A stretch of 45,170 bases of DNA, taken from Oscillospiraceae bacterium (GTDB taxonomy: Bacteria > Bacillota > Clostridia > Oscillospirales > Acutalibacteraceae). The notes under the pieces were generated by a model. That model searched no databases and was not told the origin of the DNA. It was given only the letters and a program-made list of their open reading frames with translations. The number at the start of each line of letters is the position of its first letter. The stretch's first letter is position 1. The stretch spans positions 1 through 45,170 of the forward strand of contig JAFLUM010000014.1 in assembly GCA_022508805.1 (NCBI GenBank). Direction: 5' to 3'. Of this stretch, positions 26,140 to 37,653 are shown in pieces. A program made the position numbers and the translations under genes.

Positions 26140-27000
26140 ATGATGGCTAAAAAAGGCGGTTTGGGAAGAGGTATCAACTCCCTTTTCCTTGATAATGCTA
26201 CTGAGGACACTTCCTCCTCTGCCGTGATGCTGAGTATAAACGAGGTGGAGCCTAACCGCGACCAGCCGAGAAAAGTCTTCAGCGAGAAGGCACTCTCGGA
26301 GCTTGCAAAAAGCATTGAGCAAAACGGCATAATACAACCGTTACTTGTACGTCCCACTGCTGACGGCGGATATCAGCTTATCGCCGGTGAGCGCCGTTGG
26401 CGGGCGGCCAGAATGGTAGGACTTCACGAGGTCCCCGTCAATATACGCGAGATGACCGATGAAGAGGCAAGTCTGATTTCCCTTATCGAGAATTTACAGC
26501 GTGAGGACTTAAACCCTGTTGAAGAGGCTCAGGGCTACAAATATCTTGCGGAATCCTACGGATTGACACAAGATCAGGTCGCCGACCGTGTGGGCAAATC
26601 TCGAACGGCAGTCACCAATACAATGAGGCTTTTAAGGCTTCCCGACTCTGTACTTGCCCGACTTTCGGCAGGAACGCTTTCAGCGGGACATTCCAGAGCA
26701 CTTTTAGCACTGGATGATGAAAGCGAGATCGAGCGCATTGCCGATATGATAGTAAAAGACGGCTTGTCCGTCCGTCAGACGGAAAAAATGGTAAAAACCG
26801 CCTCAAAGGACGGGAAAAAGCCCCCTGTCAAGCGTGAAAAAAAGCGGGACAGCTATTATGATGAGGTGGAATTGGCGCTTACCGAGGCTCTCGGCAGAAC
26901 AGTTAAGGTTTATCTGTCAAAAGGCGGTAAGGGAACGCTTGAATTTGAATTTTACGGCAAAGAGGATCTGACGCGACTTGCAAAGGATCTTGATAAATAA
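26140..27000 (+). CDS. parB: Chromosome partitioning protein ParB/Spo0J
   Basis: This 286-residue CTP-dependent clamp binds parS. It begins MAKKGGLGRGINSLF, the conserved ParA-stimulating N-terminus. The CTPase box AGERRWRAARM (82-92) and ENLQREDLNPVEEAQGYK follow, then the helix-turn-helix LTQDQVADRVGKSRTAVTN, then a C-terminal dimer domain. Two ATGs in tandem (26140 and 26143) are possible starts. Immediately after parA and ahead of serS, it is the Spo0J orthologue; the Noc-like paralogue lies at 23877. Confidence 0.96.
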   Translation: MMAKKGGLGRGINSLFLDNATEDTSSSAVMLSINEVEPNRDQPRKVFSEKALSELAKSIEQNGIIQPLLVRPTADGGYQLIAGERRWRAARMVGLHEVPVNIREMTDEEASLISLIENLQREDLNPVEEAQGYKYLAESYGLTQDQVADRVGKSRTAVTNTMRLLRLPDSVLARLSAGTLSAGHSRALLALDDESEIERIADMIVKDGLSVRQTEKMVKTASKDGKKPPVKREKKRDSYYDEVELALTEALGRTVKVYLSKGGKGTLEFEFYGKEDLTRLAKDLDK

Positions 27001-27021
27001 AAGGTTGAAAGGAAATGAACG

Positions 27022-28302
27022 ATGCTTGACATCAAGTTTTTGAGAAACAACCCTCAGGTTGTTAAGGAAAACATAAAAAAGAAGTTCCAGGACGAAAAGC
27101 TGGAGCTTGTTGATAAGGTCATCGCCTTTGATAAGGAGTACCGTGAGGCAAAACAGCGCGGTGACGAGCTTCGTGCGTTGCGTAATTCCGTCAGCAAGGA
27201 GATCGGCGGATTTATGGCAAAGGGTATGCGCGACGAGGCGGAAAAGGCTAAGCAAAGGGTCAAGGATATGGCAGATGAGCTTGCCGCCCTTGAGGTGAGA
27301 GAAGGTGAGCTTGAGGGGGAGATCCGCAAGATAATGCTCGTTATTCCCAACATTATCGACCCCAGCGTGCCCATAGGCAAGGATGACAGCGAAAATGTTG
27401 AGATAGAGCGTTACGGTGATCCGGTCGTTCCCGATTATGAGATCCCCTATCATATTGATATTATGGAGAGCTTTAACGGCGTTGACTTGGATGCAGCAAG
27501 AAGGACCAGCGGCAACGGATTTTATTATCTTAAAGGCGACATTGCCCGTCTTCACTCGGCAATACTTTCTTATGCCCGTGATTTTATGATCGGCCGCGGC
27601 TTTACCTACTGCGTGCCGCCGTTTATGATAAGAAGTGACGTTGTTACGGGCGTTATGAGCTTTGCCGAAATGGAAAATATGATGTATAAGATCGAGGGCG
27701 AGGACCTTTATCTTATCGGCACCAGCGAACATTCCATGATAGGCAGCTTTATTGACAGCTTTACTCCCGAGGACGAGCTTCCCAAAACGCTGACCAGCTA
27801 CTCCCCCTGCTTCCGCAAGGAAGTCGGCGCGCACGGCATTGAGGAGCGTGGCGTGTACAGAATTCACCAGTTTGAAAAGCAGGAGATGATAGTCGTCTGC
27901 AAGCCCGAGGACAGTATGGCTTGGTACGATAAGCTCTGGCAGAATTCGGTGGATTTCTTCCGTTCCCTTGATATCCCTGTAAGAACGCTGGAGTGCTGCT
28001 CGGGCGACTTGGCGGACTTAAAGGTCAAGAGCTGTGACGTTGAGGCGTGGAGTCCCCGCCAGCAGAAGTATTTCGAGGTTGGCTCCTGCTCGAATTTGGG
28101 TGATGCTCAGGCAAGACGCCTCGGCATCCGCGTAAAGAGTAAGGACGGTAACTATTTTGCCCACACACTCAACAACACGGTGGTAGCCCCCCCGAGAATG
28201 CTTATAGCCTTCCTTGAAAACAACCTTAACGCGGACGGTTCGGTGAATATTCCTGAGCCCCTGCGGATGTATATGGGCGGTAAGGAAAAAATAAAAAAAT
28301 AA
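27022..28302 (+). CDS. serS: Seryl-tRNA synthetase
   Basis: This 426-residue class II synthetase charges tRNA-Ser. Residues 1-105 form the N-terminal coiled-coil arm. Motif 2 is FRKEVGAHGIEERGVYRIHQFEK. Motif 3 departs from the usual GSGLAVGRTLVAILEN form: here it reads NNTVVAPPRMLIAFLEN (384-400), keeping the essential Arg392. VEAWSPRQQKYFEVGSCSNLGDAQARR replaces the common DLEVWLPAQ...SSCSNFEDFQARR. The divergence is in conserved positions but the fold signature is intact, so it should be active. It is 21 bp after parB, with a GAAAGGA ribosome site. Confidence 0.95.
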   Translation: MLDIKFLRNNPQVVKENIKKKFQDEKLELVDKVIAFDKEYREAKQRGDELRALRNSVSKEIGGFMAKGMRDEAEKAKQRVKDMADELAALEVREGELEGEIRKIMLVIPNIIDPSVPIGKDDSENVEIERYGDPVVPDYEIPYHIDIMESFNGVDLDAARRTSGNGFYYLKGDIARLHSAILSYARDFMIGRGFTYCVPPFMIRSDVVTGVMSFAEMENMMYKIEGEDLYLIGTSEHSMIGSFIDSFTPEDELPKTLTSYSPCFRKEVGAHGIEERGVYRIHQFEKQEMIVVCKPEDSMAWYDKLWQNSVDFFRSLDIPVRTLECCSGDLADLKVKSCDVEAWSPRQQKYFEVGSCSNLGDAQARRLGIRVKSKDGNYFAHTLNNTVVAPPRMLIAFLENNLNADGSVNIPEPLRMYMGGKEKIKK

Positions 28303-30362: not shown

Positions 30363-30716
30363 ATAGTCGGGCAAATCAATTTGCCCCCTACTCAAAGGAA
30401 CACCGCAGAGCGACTGAGAGAGTAGATCCCTGTCCAACCCGCACAAATCAACATCTTGACATATAAATTCTCTTTACCCCCAACATATTGTAAAAAGGCA
30501 AAAAACCGTGTAAAACAGCTCATATAATAGACAGATTTACAATAATATGTCTAAAAAATCAATAAAATCAGCCTATTTAATCAACAACAGTCAATTCGTT
30601 AACAATTTATTAACAAATTCGTGAAAATGACAAAATATTCTTTAGAGTATTTGCACAAAATCGCTAAAAAATTATTGTTTGAAATGCAGAAAATAAGAAT
30701 TTTCCGAAAAAAGCTA

Positions 30717-30745
30717 TTGATTTTTATGAAAAACGCTTGTATAAT
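30717..30745 (+). promoter_or_regulatory. Strong promoter of the structured leader and dockerin gene
   Basis: -35 TTGATT (30717-30722), exactly 17-nt spacer, -10 TATAAT (30740-30745). The start site would be near 30752, right at the first base of the GC-rich structured block, which makes the block a 5' leader of about 370 nt before the ATG at 31125. Confidence 0.8.
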
Positions 30746-30751
30746 GAACTC

Positions 30752-31080
30752 GACCATAGGAATGGTGTAATGGGGTAGAGGTGCCTCCATTTTTATGAAA
30801 GCACCCTCGCCCAAGGGGCATTCCCCGTTGCAGATACACATCCCTACGGTTAAAAACAGGGATTTCCGAAGTCCCTTTAATCGGCTCGGATGTGTATCAT
30901 CGGTCTTCCGCCGTCTTTTGCATTAAAAGCGGAAGCGGTGTGAGGGCTATCCGAACTAAATACGAGCACTTTTGCCGACCTCTGCCGAATGCGGATCACC
31001 GCACGGCTGGGTCAGAGAGTGAAGCGATTGCTGCTCTCGGTGTCGCCCTGCTTCGCAGCGACATTAAATAATGCGGCGCA
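30752..31080 (+). ncRNA. Large structured 5' leader RNA, class not recognised
   Basis: A ~330-nt GC-rich island in AT-rich DNA, between a strong promoter and a secreted dockerin protein gene. Visible helices are these. P1 is GGGTAG/CTATCC (30773-30778 with 30947-30952) and closes a multi-branch domain. P2 is GAGGTGC with its partner (30778-30784 with 30801-30808, one bulge). P3 is GGGG/CCCC (30815-30826). P4 is a perfect 11-bp helix (30833-30843 with 30888-30898) capped by nested stems. P5 is a perfect 7-bp helix (30905-30911 with 30929-30935). A second domain has P6 (30980-31017, with TGCGG/CCGCA) and P7 (31041-31063). GAGAG at 31015-31019 can pair with CTCTC at 31034-31038, which competes with the base of P6. 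No T-rich terminator follows. It may be a riboswitch, an mRNA-stabilising leader or an independent RNA. Confidence 0.7.
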
Positions 31081-31124
31081 AATTGCAATTATATTGCAAA
31101 ATTTAATAGGAGGAAAAATAAAAG

Positions 31125-34100
31125 ATGAAAAAATCTAAAAAATTGTTAAGCGTGCTCTTGGCAGTTTTGATGCTTTTGTCGAGTCTGACCGTTTTGGCGT
31201 CTGCTGCAAAAGCCGAGTACAAAACGAGTGAAAATCTTACATCTCTCAATGCGTACTCACCTTACGGCGCAGTTACAAGACTTGATACCGAGACAAGATT
31301 GTCAATGGTTTTTGATATGCTTGACCAGGTTCTTGAAGATGCCAACATCAATATGGGTCAGTTGTTCAATGTTGCGGGACTTTCCCTCACTATCGACTTG
31401 ACATCCATCAATGCTCTTTGCGGAACTCTTGACAATGTTAAGAGCCTTTTGAGCAACTTACTGGTACGTATTGTTAAGGGCTTGCTCGGCATAATCGCTG
31501 ACGTTGATATGGGCAGCTGGCAGAGCGGTATGAAACGTGAAAACACTGACCAGTTTAAAATCCTTACTGAGCTTTGCGAAGTTCTCAGAGATAACGCTGA
31601 TCTTGTCGGTACGGTATTAAGCACCGGTAAACTTAACCTCGGTGTTGCCAGTTCTGCTGTAAAGGGTCTTGATATCAGCAAAATTGCTGACATCCCCGCT
31701 ATTGTTAAGGGCATGATCTTCCCGATGTTTGAGAGAAAAGACGATGATCAGGCTCAGATCAATTCTCTTGCCAATACTAAGGGCAACGGCGGCTTGCAGG
31801 CGGTTCTTAACAACTTCGTGAACGCCCTGTTCACCAAGCCTCAGAGCACCACTACTTATAAAGAGGATGCCCAGGGCAACTGCATCAGCAACCACACTCT
31901 GCCCACAGGCGCAGGCACCCGTTACTATTATGTAAAGGGTACTGACGATATCGGTGAATACTATGAGGCATATGTATATAACACCGATAAGGGTAATTAT
32001 GAAGCTGAAGAGGGTCGCTTCTATAAGAGCGAAGAGTCTGACGGCGTTTACACCTATCATAAGACCTCCGGCGAAGGCTTGAAGTATTATGAGAACGACA
32101 GCTACTGGCTTCCCTCAGTTACTGAGGCTATCAATGGCGGTCAGTTCTCTGTTGATCTTACGACCAACAGTGCCGCTTCTCTTCTTTACGGCTTTATTCC
32201 CTATGTATTCGGTGAGATGGCTCCTGTTGTTCTCAACGGTTCAATGAAGAAGCTCCTCGGTGAGCTGTTCGGTGCAACCTATACTTACGTAGGCGATGCC
32301 GGCAGTGACGAGGTTAAAGCTCTTGGCTCTGATTCTTTCTTCACAGAGGAACAGGGCGAGTATGTTTGGGAGTGGACCAATTACAAAGTAATTGACGGCA
32401 CTCACTATTATCGTTATGAAGACAAAATCTTCAAAGGTGATACTTCATCTGTCAATGACTTCTTTGCACTTATCGACTGGAATTATAAGATCACTGATGA
32501 TTTCCTGAATGAGTTTATCCCCGGCGCTGACGGCAATACTCAGTCTCAGGCTGGCTACACAACTCTTCTCCAGGGACTCAATGATTTCCTTGTAAAGGCT
32601 GCTAACACAGTCCTTGCTGATGACGTTGTAGCTGAGCTCGCTCTTGATAAGGGTGACAACTCAAAGCTTATCGGTAACATCAAGAAGGCTGCTCAGACTA
32701 TCGTTGCTAAGAGCCCCGAAACTATTTTTGGCGCTGAATATGCTGACGAAGATAAGTATTATAACCTTATCATGAGCAATAATGATCAGGAAGTTCTCAT
32801 CGGTATTGCTTGCACAGTTCTTCCGATGATCATGCCGCAGATGATTCTGCCCACCGCAGAAACCATCAAGGATAAGGGATATACTATCGGTGCTGTTCTT
32901 GCAGCAGTTCTTCGTGAGCTTGCAACGCAGCTTGTACCGAATCACAACTATGATGCACTTATCTATGATCAGTATAACAAAAAGACATTCGTTGCCGGCA
33001 AGGACAATGAGTATTGGCTTGATGTTATTCTCACAATGGGTACAGACATCGGCGTTTATTACTTAAAGAACCTTGCTGATATGGGTGAGGGTACTGATGC
33101 TTGGAAGACCGGTATGCCTTATCAGGATTCTCAGACCTACACTGCAGATGACCTTGGTTCAGACTTAAAGGTTTGGGAAGCAAGAGTTGACTACATTGTT
33201 GACTGGGCACTCACAGGCACAGACACACTTTGGGCTTGGCATTTTGGAACACTGGTTGACGCTGGTGCAAGCGTTGATCTTGCAACTCAGCAGGATCCGT
33301 GGGTTAAGCTGAGCACTATCATTAAGAACCTTCTTCCTGTTGATCAGATTCTTAATGTGACCTTTAACGATCAATGGCTGAAGACAGTATTGAAGGACAA
33401 CTTTGTTCTTGCAATTGCTGATCTTAAGATCGAGAAAATCTCCAACATGCTTATCATTCCGACAGACAGTGTTCTTAGAAAAGCTAATGTCTTTACACAG
33501 CTTACATCTGTCTTCAAGAATTTAATCAACGGTCTTCTCAAGAAAGTCGCTACCGTTGACCTTATTCCTGCAGCTATAACTGATATTGATACAGTTCTTA
33601 ATCAGACCAATATCATAACGGTTGTTAAGACTCTTCTTAAAAACTTGATAAATGCTGCTAACAACGGATTGCTTGATCCGATTCTTCCGGTCGCCAACTT
33701 CTTCATCGGTTGGACCACCGACCCGCAGAAGATGGCTGATCCCACGCTTTCATTCACAAACACTGACTGGAAGCCCTATATGTACTCTTCAGACAGCTCA
33801 ACTGTAAATAGTACGCTCTATGTTCGTAACGACTCTTCAGGTATGCTTAACACGCACCGCCAGAGCGAAGTTGTTGACAATCCGTACTATATGTACATTA
33901 CATCTGTTACATCTGATTACGGCGACGTTACGGTAAATGCAGCGCTTCCGATGTCAATTGCTCCCGGTGCAAAGGGTGAGATCCCGATCAGCATGGCATA
34001 CACGGGCGACAAATCCATAACGGTTACCGTTTCCTACTACTATCTCTTCAAAGACGGTAATGTTGTAGGTGACGGCACTGCGATCGAGGAGACAACTTAT

Positions 34101-36269
34101 CAGTATGTTTCCAATAAGGTCGATGAGCAGGCATATAACACCTATGCTGAGCAGAATACGCAGGTTAACAACACGGCATTTACGAAAGTTAACGCCATTA
34201 AGATTAAACCCGGCGACACACCCAAATATCTCGTTGTAACCGGACTTGATCAGGTAAGTTATATCGGCTATAGCTTTGCAAATACCAACAACGAGAAGTA
34301 TGCTACATGGATAAGCGCGTTCTCGGCTTCCGGCATGCCCAACTTCGTAAAGGCTGACAGCTCCGGATTCCTTCACGGTACAAACGAAGTTTCTGACATG
34401 AAGGATGCTACTCACGGCTGGATGGACGGCGATAACACATCTGCTACCATCTATCCCTATGTACTTAATGCTGATGTAGATATTTCCGGCATTGCTTCAG
34501 GTTCGTCTTTCAACATGGGCACCTTCAGTGTTACATGGCACAACAACAAGAAGGGCGGTAACTTTGGTGTTCAGGACACCGGCGGTAACAACAACTTGAC
34601 ATGGACCATCAACGCTGGTACTATTTATTATAAGAATATTAACGAGCTTCAAGATGTATTTAATCAGTACAAAGGCATTCAGAGAAAGAACTATGCTAAG
34701 AATGCTGACGCTGAGTGGAATGCATTTAAGAATGCAATGTTCGCTGCTGAAAGAACTCTTGAAATGCCTTTCGTAGAGTCAACCTTCGCAGAGGAGTATG
34801 CTCCTGCTAAACTTGCTGAGCTTGTTAAAGCCATTAAGGATGCATATGAGGCTCTTTCCAAGAAAGAAGCAACAGCTACATCCGCTTCTCTTGAGGCTGC
34901 TCTTGCTAAGGCTGAGCCCGGCGGCGATATTCCTGAGATCAACTATCAGAATTATCAGCTGTTCGAGTACTTCCAGTATCAGGATTACAGAACTGCTGTT
35001 CGTAACAGAATCAAAGAGTACTATGGTCCTGTTGCTCCCGAGAAGTACTTCCCCGACAGCTCACTTTCCGGTAAGGCTGTTGACGAGATGCTCGCAACTG
35101 TAACTAATGATAAAAAAGCTACTGCTCTTAAGTCTTCGGTAATTGAACCCACTGCTGAGGAGCTTGCAGCTTATGAAGCAGCTGTTGAAGCATTCAGACT
35201 TCCCACATATTCAGAGCTTGACAACGCTAACCAGGGTCAGCTTTTGAACTACTACAAGCAGTTCCTTATCGCAAAGACAACTGAGAAGCAGTTCCTTGCA
35301 AAGGAAATTGCTTATGCTGCAGCTCAGAACTATGTTGCAGCGAACTACAGCACTGATTCTTGGGCAGCCTATACGGAGGCTCTTGAGAATGCAAAAACTG
35401 TAAACGCTAAGGGAGATGCTCTCCAGTCAGAGGTATTTGACGCTAAGTATGCACTTATGGTAGCTGAGAATAACCTTCTCGCTGCTGACAAATCTGCTAA
35501 GGACACAGGTTATACCAATAATCTTAAGAAACTTGCTGAACAGGCTGAAAATATCTTCTCAACATACACCACTGATACTTATGATATCGTTAAGGGTATG
35601 ACTGAAGAAGAGGCATTTGCACAGCTCCTTGCAGCTCTTGGTTATTACACCGATGATGGTGAGATCCTGTACGCAGGCTCAGCTTATACGTTCATCGAGT
35701 ATGACCGCGAGCTTACCCAGAACAATAAGGATAAGATCAAGGCTGCTGAGAAAGCACTTGAAGCTGCTATCGCAAACTTCATCCCGAAGCTGAATGATCC
35801 CGAGATCTTCGGCAGAGAAGAGCATCATGATAACGAAGATGTTCCCTTTGACGGTGATCAGGATCACAACGGATTTGTTGATGATCTTAACAAGTATCTC
35901 TACGGTATCGGAGTTGGTCAGGATATCCTTCAGGTATTCCACAGCTCAACATCCTTGAACCTTATAGCGAATGAGCAGGGTGTTACCAACGGTACAGGTG
36001 CTACTGTTCAACTTCTCCGTGCCGATGGCACCGTATTTATAACCTACACGGTTGTCATCTTCGCTGATGTTGATGGCGACGCTGAGATTAGCTTGCGCGA
36101 TGCCAATACTGTTACATTAGCGGCTGTAGGTACATCTGAGCTTGAAGGTGTATATGCTTTTGCTGCCGATGTTGACGGTGATGAAGAAATTTCACTTAGA
36201 GATGCTAATACGGTAACTCTTGGTGCTGTTGGTACCGCTACAGTTACAACTAACCCCTACGCAGAATAA
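31125..36269 (+). CDS. Giant secreted protein with FIVAR-like segments and C-terminal dockerin
   Basis: This 1714-residue exported protein has a signal peptide (MKKSKKLLSVLLAVLMLLSS... to SAAKA, about 1-29). A ~1150-residue region of unknown fold follows, with Tyr-rich YYVKGTDDIGEYYEAYVYN-like patches and many amphipathic LL-rich helices. From ~1170 there are helical repeats of the FIVAR type, for example YSTDSWAAYTEALENA. A short beta domain (GTGATVQLLRADGTVFITYTVVIF) precedes a type I-like dockerin: two calcium loops, DVDGDAEISLRD (~1648-1659) and DVDGDEEISLRD (~1682-1693), at the very C-terminus. Dockerins bind cohesins, so it should attach to a cohesin-bearing partner, not encoded here. 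The AGGAGG site (31108-31113) and heavy use of a narrow codon set suggest strong expression. No catalytic domain is recognised. Confidence 0.9.
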   Translation: MKKSKKLLSVLLAVLMLLSSLTVLASAAKAEYKTSENLTSLNAYSPYGAVTRLDTETRLSMVFDMLDQVLEDANINMGQLFNVAGLSLTIDLTSINALCGTLDNVKSLLSNLLVRIVKGLLGIIADVDMGSWQSGMKRENTDQFKILTELCEVLRDNADLVGTVLSTGKLNLGVASSAVKGLDISKIADIPAIVKGMIFPMFERKDDDQAQINSLANTKGNGGLQAVLNNFVNALFTKPQSTTTYKEDAQGNCISNHTLPTGAGTRYYYVKGTDDIGEYYEAYVYNTDKGNYEAEEGRFYKSEESDGVYTYHKTSGEGLKYYENDSYWLPSVTEAINGGQFSVDLTTNSAASLLYGFIPYVFGEMAPVVLNGSMKKLLGELFGATYTYVGDAGSDEVKALGSDSFFTEEQGEYVWEWTNYKVIDGTHYYRYEDKIFKGDTSSVNDFFALIDWNYKITDDFLNEFIPGADGNTQSQAGYTTLLQGLNDFLVKAANTVLADDVVAELALDKGDNSKLIGNIKKAAQTIVAKSPETIFGAEYADEDKYYNLIMSNNDQEVLIGIACTVLPMIMPQMILPTAETIKDKGYTIGAVLAAVLRELATQLVPNHNYDALIYDQYNKKTFVAGKDNEYWLDVILTMGTDIGVYYLKNLADMGEGTDAWKTGMPYQDSQTYTADDLGSDLKVWEARVDYIVDWALTGTDTLWAWHFGTLVDAGASVDLATQQDPWVKLSTIIKNLLPVDQILNVTFNDQWLKTVLKDNFVLAIADLKIEKISNMLIIPTDSVLRKANVFTQLTSVFKNLINGLLKKVATVDLIPAAITDIDTVLNQTNIITVVKTLLKNLINAANNGLLDPILPVANFFIGWTTDPQKMADPTLSFTNTDWKPYMYSSDSSTVNSTLYVRNDSSGMLNTHRQSEVVDNPYYMYITSVTSDYGDVTVNAALPMSIAPGAKGEIPISMAYTGDKSITVTVSYYYLFKDGNVVGDGTAIEETTYQYVSNKVDEQAYNTYAEQNTQVNNTAFTKVNAIKIKPGDTPKYLVVTGLDQVSYIGYSFANTNNEKYATWISAFSASGMPNFVKADSSGFLHGTNEVSDMKDATHGWMDGDNTSATIYPYVLNADVDISGIASGSSFNMGTFSVTWHNNKKGGNFGVQDTGGNNNLTWTINAGTIYYKNINELQDVFNQYKGIQRKNYAKNADAEWNAFKNAMFAAERTLEMPFVESTFAEEYAPAKLAELVKAIKDAYEALSKKEATATSASLEAALAKAEPGGDIPEINYQNYQLFEYFQYQDYRTAVRNRIKEYYGPVAPEKYFPDSSLSGKAVDEMLATVTNDKKATALKSSVIEPTAEELAAYEAAVEAFRLPTYSELDNANQGQLLNYYKQFLIAKTTEKQFLAKEIAYAAAQNYVAANYSTDSWAAYTEALENAKTVNAKGDALQSEVFDAKYALMVAENNLLAADKSAKDTGYTNNLKKLAEQAENIFSTYTTDTYDIVKGMTEEEAFAQLLAALGYYTDDGEILYAGSAYTFIEYDRELTQNNKDKIKAAEKALEAAIANFIPKLNDPEIFGREEHHDNEDVPFDGDQDHNGFVDDLNKYLYGIGVGQDILQVFHSSTSLNLIANEQGVTNGTGATVQLLRADGTVFITYTVVIFADVDGDAEISLRDANTVTLAAVGTSELEGVYAFAADVDGDEEISLRDANTVTLGAVGTATVTTNPYAE

Positions 36270-36328: not shown

Positions 36329-36450
36329 GGACATTACTTAGCGAACGGTTTAAAGCAATCACCGTGTTCCTGCGGTTAAAGTATTCGGAAAAACAATAGC
36401 ATCGTAGAGAATACGGTGAAAAATTTAAAAAATTCGATTAGGTGATTTTA

Positions 36451-37653
36451 ATGAAAAAATTTACAAAAGTCATTAGCGTTATACTGATTATATCAGCAAT
36501 GCTGATGGCAACCTTAATGCCGGCATTCGCAGCTTTTCCGGAAGATGCTGAGGCCTACATTTGGGTGACAAAAGAACAGACAGGTTCTAGTCCTGATATC
36601 TACAAAATAACGATGCATTTGGAAGCTAACTATCCGGTTTCAGTTGGTGATATCCGCGTATATTGGCCGACTACTGATTTTAAGCTTATCAGAAATACAG
36701 GTGTAGCTAATTCAACTGTTAGAGCAACGAATGCATTTAATTTACTTGGGGCATTAGCGGATGACGAAGAATATGATTCCGAAGGTCCTGACGAATATGC
36801 AGTTGGTCCTGGAGGAGCCAATAAGCTTCCTTCAATAAGTCCAGCCGCTAAATACTTTAATGATGCTGTTCCAAGTAGCACTTATAGCGCTGTTCAATTA
36901 GCGTGGCTTACTGGTACATCTGATCCCCACTTGTACTATGATTCTTCAATATGGGGAAATGAAGTTGCTGAATTCTATCTTCAGAAGCTTGACGGTGCAT
37001 CCGATAACGCTATTGATAATGTTAACGTAAGAGCAGATGCACCGCTGGGCGATGCTGCTTGTTGGACCAGCACGACCAAAGCAAATACTGCTGCTGCAGC
37101 CGAATCATGGCAAGCTGCTGGTAATTCTGTTTTGTTCGCAACAATCAATTTCCACGCACCTGAGAATGCTATCGTTAGCCACTATGGCGATCAGATCAGA
37201 TTCCCGGGCGCTGCTGCAGGCAATTATGTCGGCAAGTTCGACATAAGAACTCTTGCTCAGATCACACCTGAAGATTTCCATGAAACATTCGGCGCTACTG
37301 ATGATGAGGCTGTAGCGAAGATCGCCACTGTCGGTTTCGTCTTTGAGAGAGTTTCTACCGGCACCAACCTTACAGTTGACGCTGTTAAGGCTTATCTGAA
37401 AGACGGCACAGCTCTTCCCGACACATGCAAGGATGCTCCTGTTGATTACATCAGCATCAGCGAGAAATTCGGCGGCAACTATGTCTTCTCATGCATGGTT
37501 GAAAAAATCCCCGATGGTGAAAAGACCGACGGTCTTCGCGCTGTTGCCTATGTTAAGACAACAGATGGCAATGTGTATTGCTATGATGCAGTTACAATAA
37601 CTAATTTCGAACCGCTGTACAGCGAATATGCAGAACGTGCAGGCGTTAAATAA
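36451..37653 (+). CDS. Secreted protein of unknown function
   Basis: This 400-residue exported protein has a clear signal peptide (MKKFTKVISVILIISAMLMA... to AFA). The mature part begins with beta-strand-rich sequence (IYKITMHLEANYPVSVGDIRVYW) that resembles carbohydrate-binding or cohesin-like sandwiches only loosely. Trp- and Tyr-rich loops (DPHLYYDSSIWGNEV, AACWTSTTKA) are in the middle, and a second beta-rich part runs to the end (NYVFSCMVEKIPDGEKTDGLRAVAYVKT). No enzyme motif, lipobox or sorting signal is seen. A GTG at 36442 is in frame but lies inside the AGGTGA ribosome site, so the ATG at 36451 is chosen. It follows the dockerin gene by ~180 bp and precedes the 40-residue peptide gene. 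Confidence 0.8.
   Translation: MKKFTKVISVILIISAMLMATLMPAFAAFPEDAEAYIWVTKEQTGSSPDIYKITMHLEANYPVSVGDIRVYWPTTDFKLIRNTGVANSTVRATNAFNLLGALADDEEYDSEGPDEYAVGPGGANKLPSISPAAKYFNDAVPSSTYSAVQLAWLTGTSDPHLYYDSSIWGNEVAEFYLQKLDGASDNAIDNVNVRADAPLGDAACWTSTTKANTAAAAESWQAAGNSVLFATINFHAPENAIVSHYGDQIRFPGAAAGNYVGKFDIRTLAQITPEDFHETFGATDDEAVAKIATVGFVFERVSTGTNLTVDAVKAYLKDGTALPDTCKDAPVDYISISEKFGGNYVFSCMVEKIPDGEKTDGLRAVAYVKTTDGNVYCYDAVTITNFEPLYSEYAERAGVK

Follow-up and report, generated by a model that had tools for sequence, protein, structure and literature searches.

A conserved, structured RNA leader absent from Rfam 15 precedes a large dockerin gene in one genus of gut Clostridia

Background

The mRNAs of S-layer and other abundant surface proteins have long leaders, and those of ompA and aprE carry stabilising hairpins at the 5' end. 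PreQ1-I is a small riboswitch of the H-type pseudoknot kind, and most metabolite riboswitches are not limited to one gene and one genus. Part of the review PMC3997798 puts forward the 5' exonuclease of RNase J1 as a possible reason why 5' stabilising elements act so strongly in Bacilli, and part of the text of PMC11706538 describes raiA/ModT (RF03072) as a large, free-standing RNA of Clostridia with pseudoknots. A limited literature search found no account of a structured leader ahead of a dockerin gene.

Here we describe such a leader in the window, by which we mean the whole 45,170-nt stretch of Oscillospiraceae DNA that was analysed. On good comparative support from sequence, it is a real conserved RNA family that is absent from Rfam 15. 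The family is unusual in size and complexity, and in one genus of uncultured gut Clostridia it goes one-to-one with a single very large protein gene.

Promoter, leader and ribosome site

The initial annotation of this DNA described a structured block between a near-consensus promoter and a strong ribosome site, ahead of a giant ORF. All of these elements are borne out:

30717..30745, + strand: sigma-70-type promoter (TTGATT at 30717-30722, 17-nt spacer, TATAAT at 30740-30745)
31108..31113, + strand: Shine-Dalgarno sequence AGGAGG, predicted to be 82% unpaired in the window leader
31125..36269, + strand: ORF of 1714 aa, the dockerin gene, with a signal-peptide-like N-terminus (by eye) and dockerin-like C-terminal repeats

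From the promoter position, the transcript is predicted to start at about 30751-30753. The conserved RNA runs from 30753 on, 8 nt beyond the -10 box, and the relatives' leaders have the same -35/-10 pattern ahead of them. The block had been drawn as ~330 nt (30752..31080). It is indeed structured, its predicted fold having an energy of -139.2 kcal/mol (z -6.8; none of 100 shuffles is as low), but structure extends beyond 31080 up to a hairpin at 31083-31099. The leader totals ~372 nt ahead of the ATG at 31125, with a fold of about 360 nt. Each of the 32 leaders collected from the genus has a better fold than its shuffled versions (40 per leader), z being below -2 throughout and -5.1 on average.

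In predicted folds of the 32 leaders the ribosome site is unpaired to a mean of 0.45, against 0.34 behind a shuffled leader; for the window the values are 0.82 and 0.24. The site is predicted to be closed in L025, L029, L039 and L041 (0.01-0.07 unpaired), and its masking is inconsistent across the set. The lone terminator-like site inside the window leader lies at 30772-30787, and none was found on the + strand from 30788 to the gene. An intrinsic terminator at hairpin H2 (see below) was considered and rejected, the U-run behind H2 being missing, by eye, in several relatives. A leader peptide was also rejected by eye.

The gene behind the leader

The window protein matches Dockerin_1 at 19.1 bits, under the cut-off of 22.9, and eight of the nine orthologs examined are over it; a PDB sequence search gave no matches. 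Three cohesin matches over the cut-off are present in the window's genome (G000:C4:44390-44791, C23:68366-68737 and C9:27258-27602) and are possible partners of the dockerin tail. Given this tail and the cohesin domains in the same genome, the leader may govern a large share of the machinery at the cell surface.

Codon adaptation was calculated in the window's genome, using ORFs from five hand-picked stretches. The dockerin gene scores 0.693, as against a mean of 0.700 (range 0.604-0.768) for 21 ribosomal-protein genes, and comes second of the 60 ORFs sampled with 200 aa or more (median 0.524), between a phosphoglycerate kinase-like protein and an elongation factor G. The gene is accordingly predicted, from this one genome, to be very highly expressed, and the secreted dockerin protein of ~1,700 aa is probably very abundant. 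The next + strand ORF (36442-37653, 403 aa) has a fairly high codon adaptation (0.61) and no Pfam match at E<=0.001. The genes upstream, at 26140-28302, include a ParB homolog and seryl-tRNA synthetase.

Helices and conserved elements

Single-sequence folds, alignments and pair counts concur on H1, H2, P4, P5, and P6 enclosing P7; P2 is less firm. The elements in the window are:

30753..30766, + strand: H1, 5'-terminal hairpin ACCAU-AGGA-AUGGU (pairs fill 98.9% of its cells over 18 sequences)
30767..30831, + strand: P2 domain (30767-30775/30823-30831 in the window; from single-sequence folds, with poor column alignment)
30833..30898, + strand: P4, 11-bp helix (30833-30843/30888-30898; nine pairs kept in 27 of 32 leaders)
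30884..30956, + strand: loop-to-junction pairing (30884-30887/30953-30956; three of four pairs form in the window)
30905..30935, + strand: P5, 7-bp helix (30905-30911/30929-30935; 18 of the 32 leaders retain at least six of its pairs)
30964..31036, + strand: P6 (30964-30966/31034-31036 and 30972-30974/31025-31027), enclosing P7a and P7b
30981-30983/31016-31018, + strand: P7a, inside P6
30984-30987/31004-31007, + strand: P7b, inside P6 (covariation E 0.001-0.002)
31010..31015, + strand: GGUCAG, in the bulge that separates P7b from P7a; all 32 leaders have it unchanged

P4 and P5 are the perfect 11-bp and 7-bp helices of the initial annotation, and both are retained among the relatives to the extent just given. 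The P4 loop pairs with the strand after P5 in every one of the 32 leaders (at least three of four pairs), the changes in this contact being mostly one-sided. P5 has both-sided changes in five of its seven pairs (18 sequences), and an overlapping outer register is also possible. H1 and P4 are almost invariant and so carry little information on covariation.

The P2 domain encloses H2 (30773-30786) and a variable interior. H2 and P2 compete for one G tract, and in single-sequence folds of many leaders the GGG tract is in a stem that closes just 5' of the 11-bp helix. A long-range helix (30773-30778 with 30947-30952), previously taken to close a multi-branch junction, can pair in the window, but it did not survive comparison: all six pairs form in one of 32 leaders and at least five in eight (mean 65%). 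We rejected it as a conserved closing helix; the GGG tract is instead in hairpin H2.

Several leaders carry additions to this plan. A long extra hairpin (30847-30883) is inserted in the P4 loop of the window copy, alone among the 32 aligned leaders. L043 and L044 have an ~80-nt insert, alternating and GC/GT-rich (GTGCGCGTGCATACGTGCGCGC), within the P2 domain. In the clade of L048, L049, L050 and L112 the P4 loop carries its own CCGAGUG/CACUCG complement; since L048 and L049 still have the downstream CCGAG strand, the loop may have two partners there.

Pseudoknot and hairpin H9

Like the GGUCAG bulge, the following two elements were found in the present analysis and are absent from the initial annotation:

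31040..31079, + strand: H-type pseudoknot (S1 31040-31046/31058-31064; S2 31053-31057/31072-31076, extendable by 31050-31051/31078-31079)
31083..31099, + strand: H9, a mostly AU-rich hairpin that in the window ends 8 nt 5' of the ribosome site

The pseudoknot, which is 3' of P6, was scored by script against 25 shuffles per leader. No shuffle equals it in 23 of the 32 leaders and one does in five more, the window included; it is weak in L022, L025, L050 and L113. On inspection, 28 of the 32 reported solutions have one geometry (the exceptions being L037, L048, L050 and L113), and L048 shows this geometry under a different stem choice. The stem sequences vary widely among species. Does each loop nevertheless match its own partner? 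In a swap test on 32 leaders, loops paired with their own downstream strand gave a mean of -10.2 kcal/mol versus -6.3 with the strands of others, and none of 20000 permutations was as good; the test picks S1 regardless of S2, about one third of the picks differ from the intended S1, and the related sequences that are permuted are not independent. (A first swap test, on 29 of the 32 leaders, was biased because stems had been selected for their own partner.) As the pseudoknot stems change between species while pairing persists, the fold is directly testable by compensatory mutation.

H9 has at least 6 bp in 25 of the 32 leaders and fewer in the other seven. It lies 8-9 nt from the ribosome site in 22 leaders, in 17 of which it also has at least 6 bp.

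Covariation

A structure of 43 pairs, with P2 excluded, was evaluated in 18 of the 32 sequences. Standard pairs fill 92.1% of its cells, 15 pairs have changes on both sides, and pairing falls to 32-54% when the partners are slid along. In a shuffle control, which does not yield a probability, four of five measures were reached by none of 500 shuffles; the fifth, further pair types, was not above shuffles (179 of 500 reach it).

Testing all pairs in the 32 sequences gave none below E 0.05 (best 0.233). One alignment took 30 of the 32 sequences, five of them with a misaligned 3' half, and most P2 pairs fail to line up between sequences. A stricter, tree-based test restricted to 62 proposed pairs was run on 27 of the 32, omitting L048, L049, L050, L112 and L113 because their 3' half misaligns, and with P7a in a wrong register. 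Only two pairs fell below 0.05, both in P7b (0.001 and 0.002). Single pairs in P5 (0.054) and P6 (0.065) were borderline; another P6 pair, at 0.121, is standard in just 10 of the 27 sequences. The compensatory changes for which a check had been proposed are thus present and, as far as sequence comparison goes, support several helices, although the all-pairs test was negative.

Distribution of the leader

A DNA similarity search of 147 genomes gave matches in 22. Eighteen loci have in common the start ACCATAGGAATGGT; a -35/-10 pattern immediately precedes it, and the same protein begins 328-381 nt on. L019 and L020 are short matches in which no leader start was found. Two covariance models were used, R1, made from 18 sequences, and a second model, R2. 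R1 has one match each, at E<=0.001, in 30 of the 39 genomes searched from the window's genus, and the N-terminal half of the protein occurs in 32 of the 39, including these 30. At the 30 loci the leader begins 328-413 nt before the gene, which is the same gene every time. An unfiltered R1 scan located a diverged leader at the right place in G010 and G011 (E 1.2e-4 and 2e-5 in 17 kb); R2 recovers that of G010 (E 0.001) and misses that of G011. The leader is therefore ahead of the gene in all 32 gene-bearing genomes of the genus (30 by covariance model, two by unfiltered scan), and the covariance models did not find it in any of the seven gene-less ones. Weak partial R2 matches in two of the latter, G007 and G026, were judged to be chance; the one in G007 lies ahead of an ORF resembling threonyl-tRNA synthetase and, by eye, has a stretch like a T-box. 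R1 matches on the minus strand reflect the near-palindrome of P4.

Draws of 300 genomes from the family and 394 from the order, searched with stricter filters that lose weak matches, gave three and six matches, respectively, all in the window's genus. Scanning 84,980 species genomes for an exact pattern turned up 29 stretches, of which R1 supports 21 at E < 1e-10. These are labelled as uncultured Clostridia, Clostridiaceae, Oscillospiraceae, Ruminococcus or Bacillota, and ruminant gut is named for several; they are not independent evidence since many are genomes already in the genus set. A pattern search of viral contigs gave two stretches, neither with full-length model support.

Weak homologs of the protein are found in eleven genomes from eleven other genera of the family. 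By eye, the stretches upstream of 11 homologs from eight of these genomes have the look of a ~300-nt leader in five cases (L116, L118, L121, L122 and L124), and in L116 and L121 an opening hairpin and G-rich stretch resemble those of the genus leaders. Unfiltered R1 scores L121 at 11.8 bits (E 0.0076) and L116 at 6.9 bits (E 0.18), at the expected place and strand; R2 gives 13.1 bits at the L121 place (E 0.65 for the whole genome). Spread of the leader into other genera of the family is suggestive only. On the initial annotation's check for conservation outside close relatives, conservation is with confidence limited to one genus (39 genomes searched).

Proposed function

What might such an RNA do? 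Our leading proposal, to which we give about an even chance, is a cis-acting leader that stabilises and insulates the mRNA of an abundant protein. The transcript would begin at or within ~2 nt of H1, and the leader would act in cis on the dockerin mRNA. H1 at the extreme 5' end, with the packed helices and the pseudoknot, would block 5'-end-dependent decay, the agent being a 5' exonuclease of the RNase J type or access by a pyrophosphohydrolase. H9 would insulate the ribosome site from the remaining fold, and the GGUCAG bulge and loop contacts would either keep the fold in shape or provide a binding site for a host protein. As a result, the 5-kb message would persist and be translated heavily, yielding large amounts of a surface or secreted protein.

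An mRNA-stabilising leader for a surface protein was among the suggestions of the initial annotation; we infer this role, and it fits best because the predicted 5' end of the transcript carries a hairpin (H1), the structure is dense, the core is followed by no terminator-like site, codon bias is marked, the ribosome site is on average somewhat more open and is set off by a hairpin, and a single gene is involved. The co-occurrence of leader and gene, in 32 of 32 gene-bearing and none of seven gene-less genomes, was likewise counted for a leader acting in cis. Against this proposal we count the seven leaders with a short H9 and the several in which the ribosome site is predicted to be closed. 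The fold itself, with ~360 nt and invariant unpaired positions, also goes beyond what would be required of a 5' roadblock, pointing to recognition of a specific kind.

A gene-specific regulatory leader, in which a bound protein or small molecule alters translation or decay, is possible though clearly less probable; the binder would perhaps be the protein that the gene encodes, or a factor specific for GGUCAG. The bulge is invariant and the P4 loop contact is kept in every leader, which would allow a protein or ligand to recognise the RNA specifically, and the two registers of P5 and the pairing of the H2 G tract in P2 mean that alternative folds exist. These points are offset by the restriction to one gene and, with confidence, one genus, which is unlike most metabolite riboswitches, by the lack, in the window, of a terminator-like site downstream of the core, and by the inconsistent predicted masking of the ribosome site. 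The earlier idea of a new riboswitch-like class is supported in the sense of a conserved, covarying and unregistered RNA, which may or may not be riboswitch-like.

We tentatively raise, while thinking it rather doubtful, a broader reading in which the RNA is a new class of large pseudoknotted cis-leader that serves as a dedicated receptor setting dockerin protein output to demand, with diverged relatives before the same protein family in other genera. Its input may be the coat protein, a GGUCAG-binding secretion or ribosome-associated factor, or an envelope metabolite.

It is improbable that the leader is a discrete ~330-nt noncoding RNA that acts in trans and merely shares the gene's promoter, as raiA-type RNAs do. 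Its size and complexity are like those of free-standing raiA/ModT as part of PMC11706538 presents it, but the window has no terminator-like site downstream of the core, the RNA keeps its place at 328-413 nt before one gene at 30 loci with the ribosome site directly after, and it was not found in the seven genomes without the gene.

Relation to known RNA classes

Rfam 15 has no match at E<=10 in 30740-31125, the models for 6S RNA and the lysine riboswitch included, and none at gathering threshold in the window, 17 relatives or 14 further loci, diverged ones among them. Across the whole genome to which the window belongs, the raiA model finds nothing at E<=10. The Rfam check thus gave no significant match to a known class, and identity with raiA or 6S RNA was rejected. 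A search of the wider segment 30600-31200 gave an STnc150 match at 30603-30858 (30.7 bits, E 0.00011, versus a gathering score of 60), which we judged to be chance because it starts in an AT-rich stretch upstream of the promoter and is gone from the 30740-31125 search; four weaker matches are outside the leader core. The lysine-riboswitch motifs GAGGTGC and GGGCTATC, to which the initial annotation had drawn attention, are private to the window copy (each in one of 32 leaders). A very diverged lysine riboswitch, raiA or 6S RNA, for which these two short motifs speak, is therefore most improbable, being refuted at the sensitivity of the E<=10 search by the missing model matches and the private motifs.

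Comparison with known systems

The likeness to the lysine riboswitch comes down to two short motifs in the window copy that the other 31 leaders lack. With raiA/ModT, going by part of PMC11706538, the leader shares large size, occurrence in Clostridia and pseudoknots, but it lacks its own terminator-like end and precedes a single gene. Its pseudoknot is like preQ1-I in being of the H type, with an A-rich third loop and a ribosome site nearby; unlike in preQ1-I, both stems vary freely between species and the ribosome site is outside the knot. The leaders of S-layer and abundant surface-protein mRNAs, and the 5' hairpins of ompA and aprE, resemble it in the long structured leader and the hairpin at the 5' end. 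The present conserved fold, whose homology to these was compared via Rfam only, differs from them in being much larger and in having a pseudoknot and an invariant bulge.
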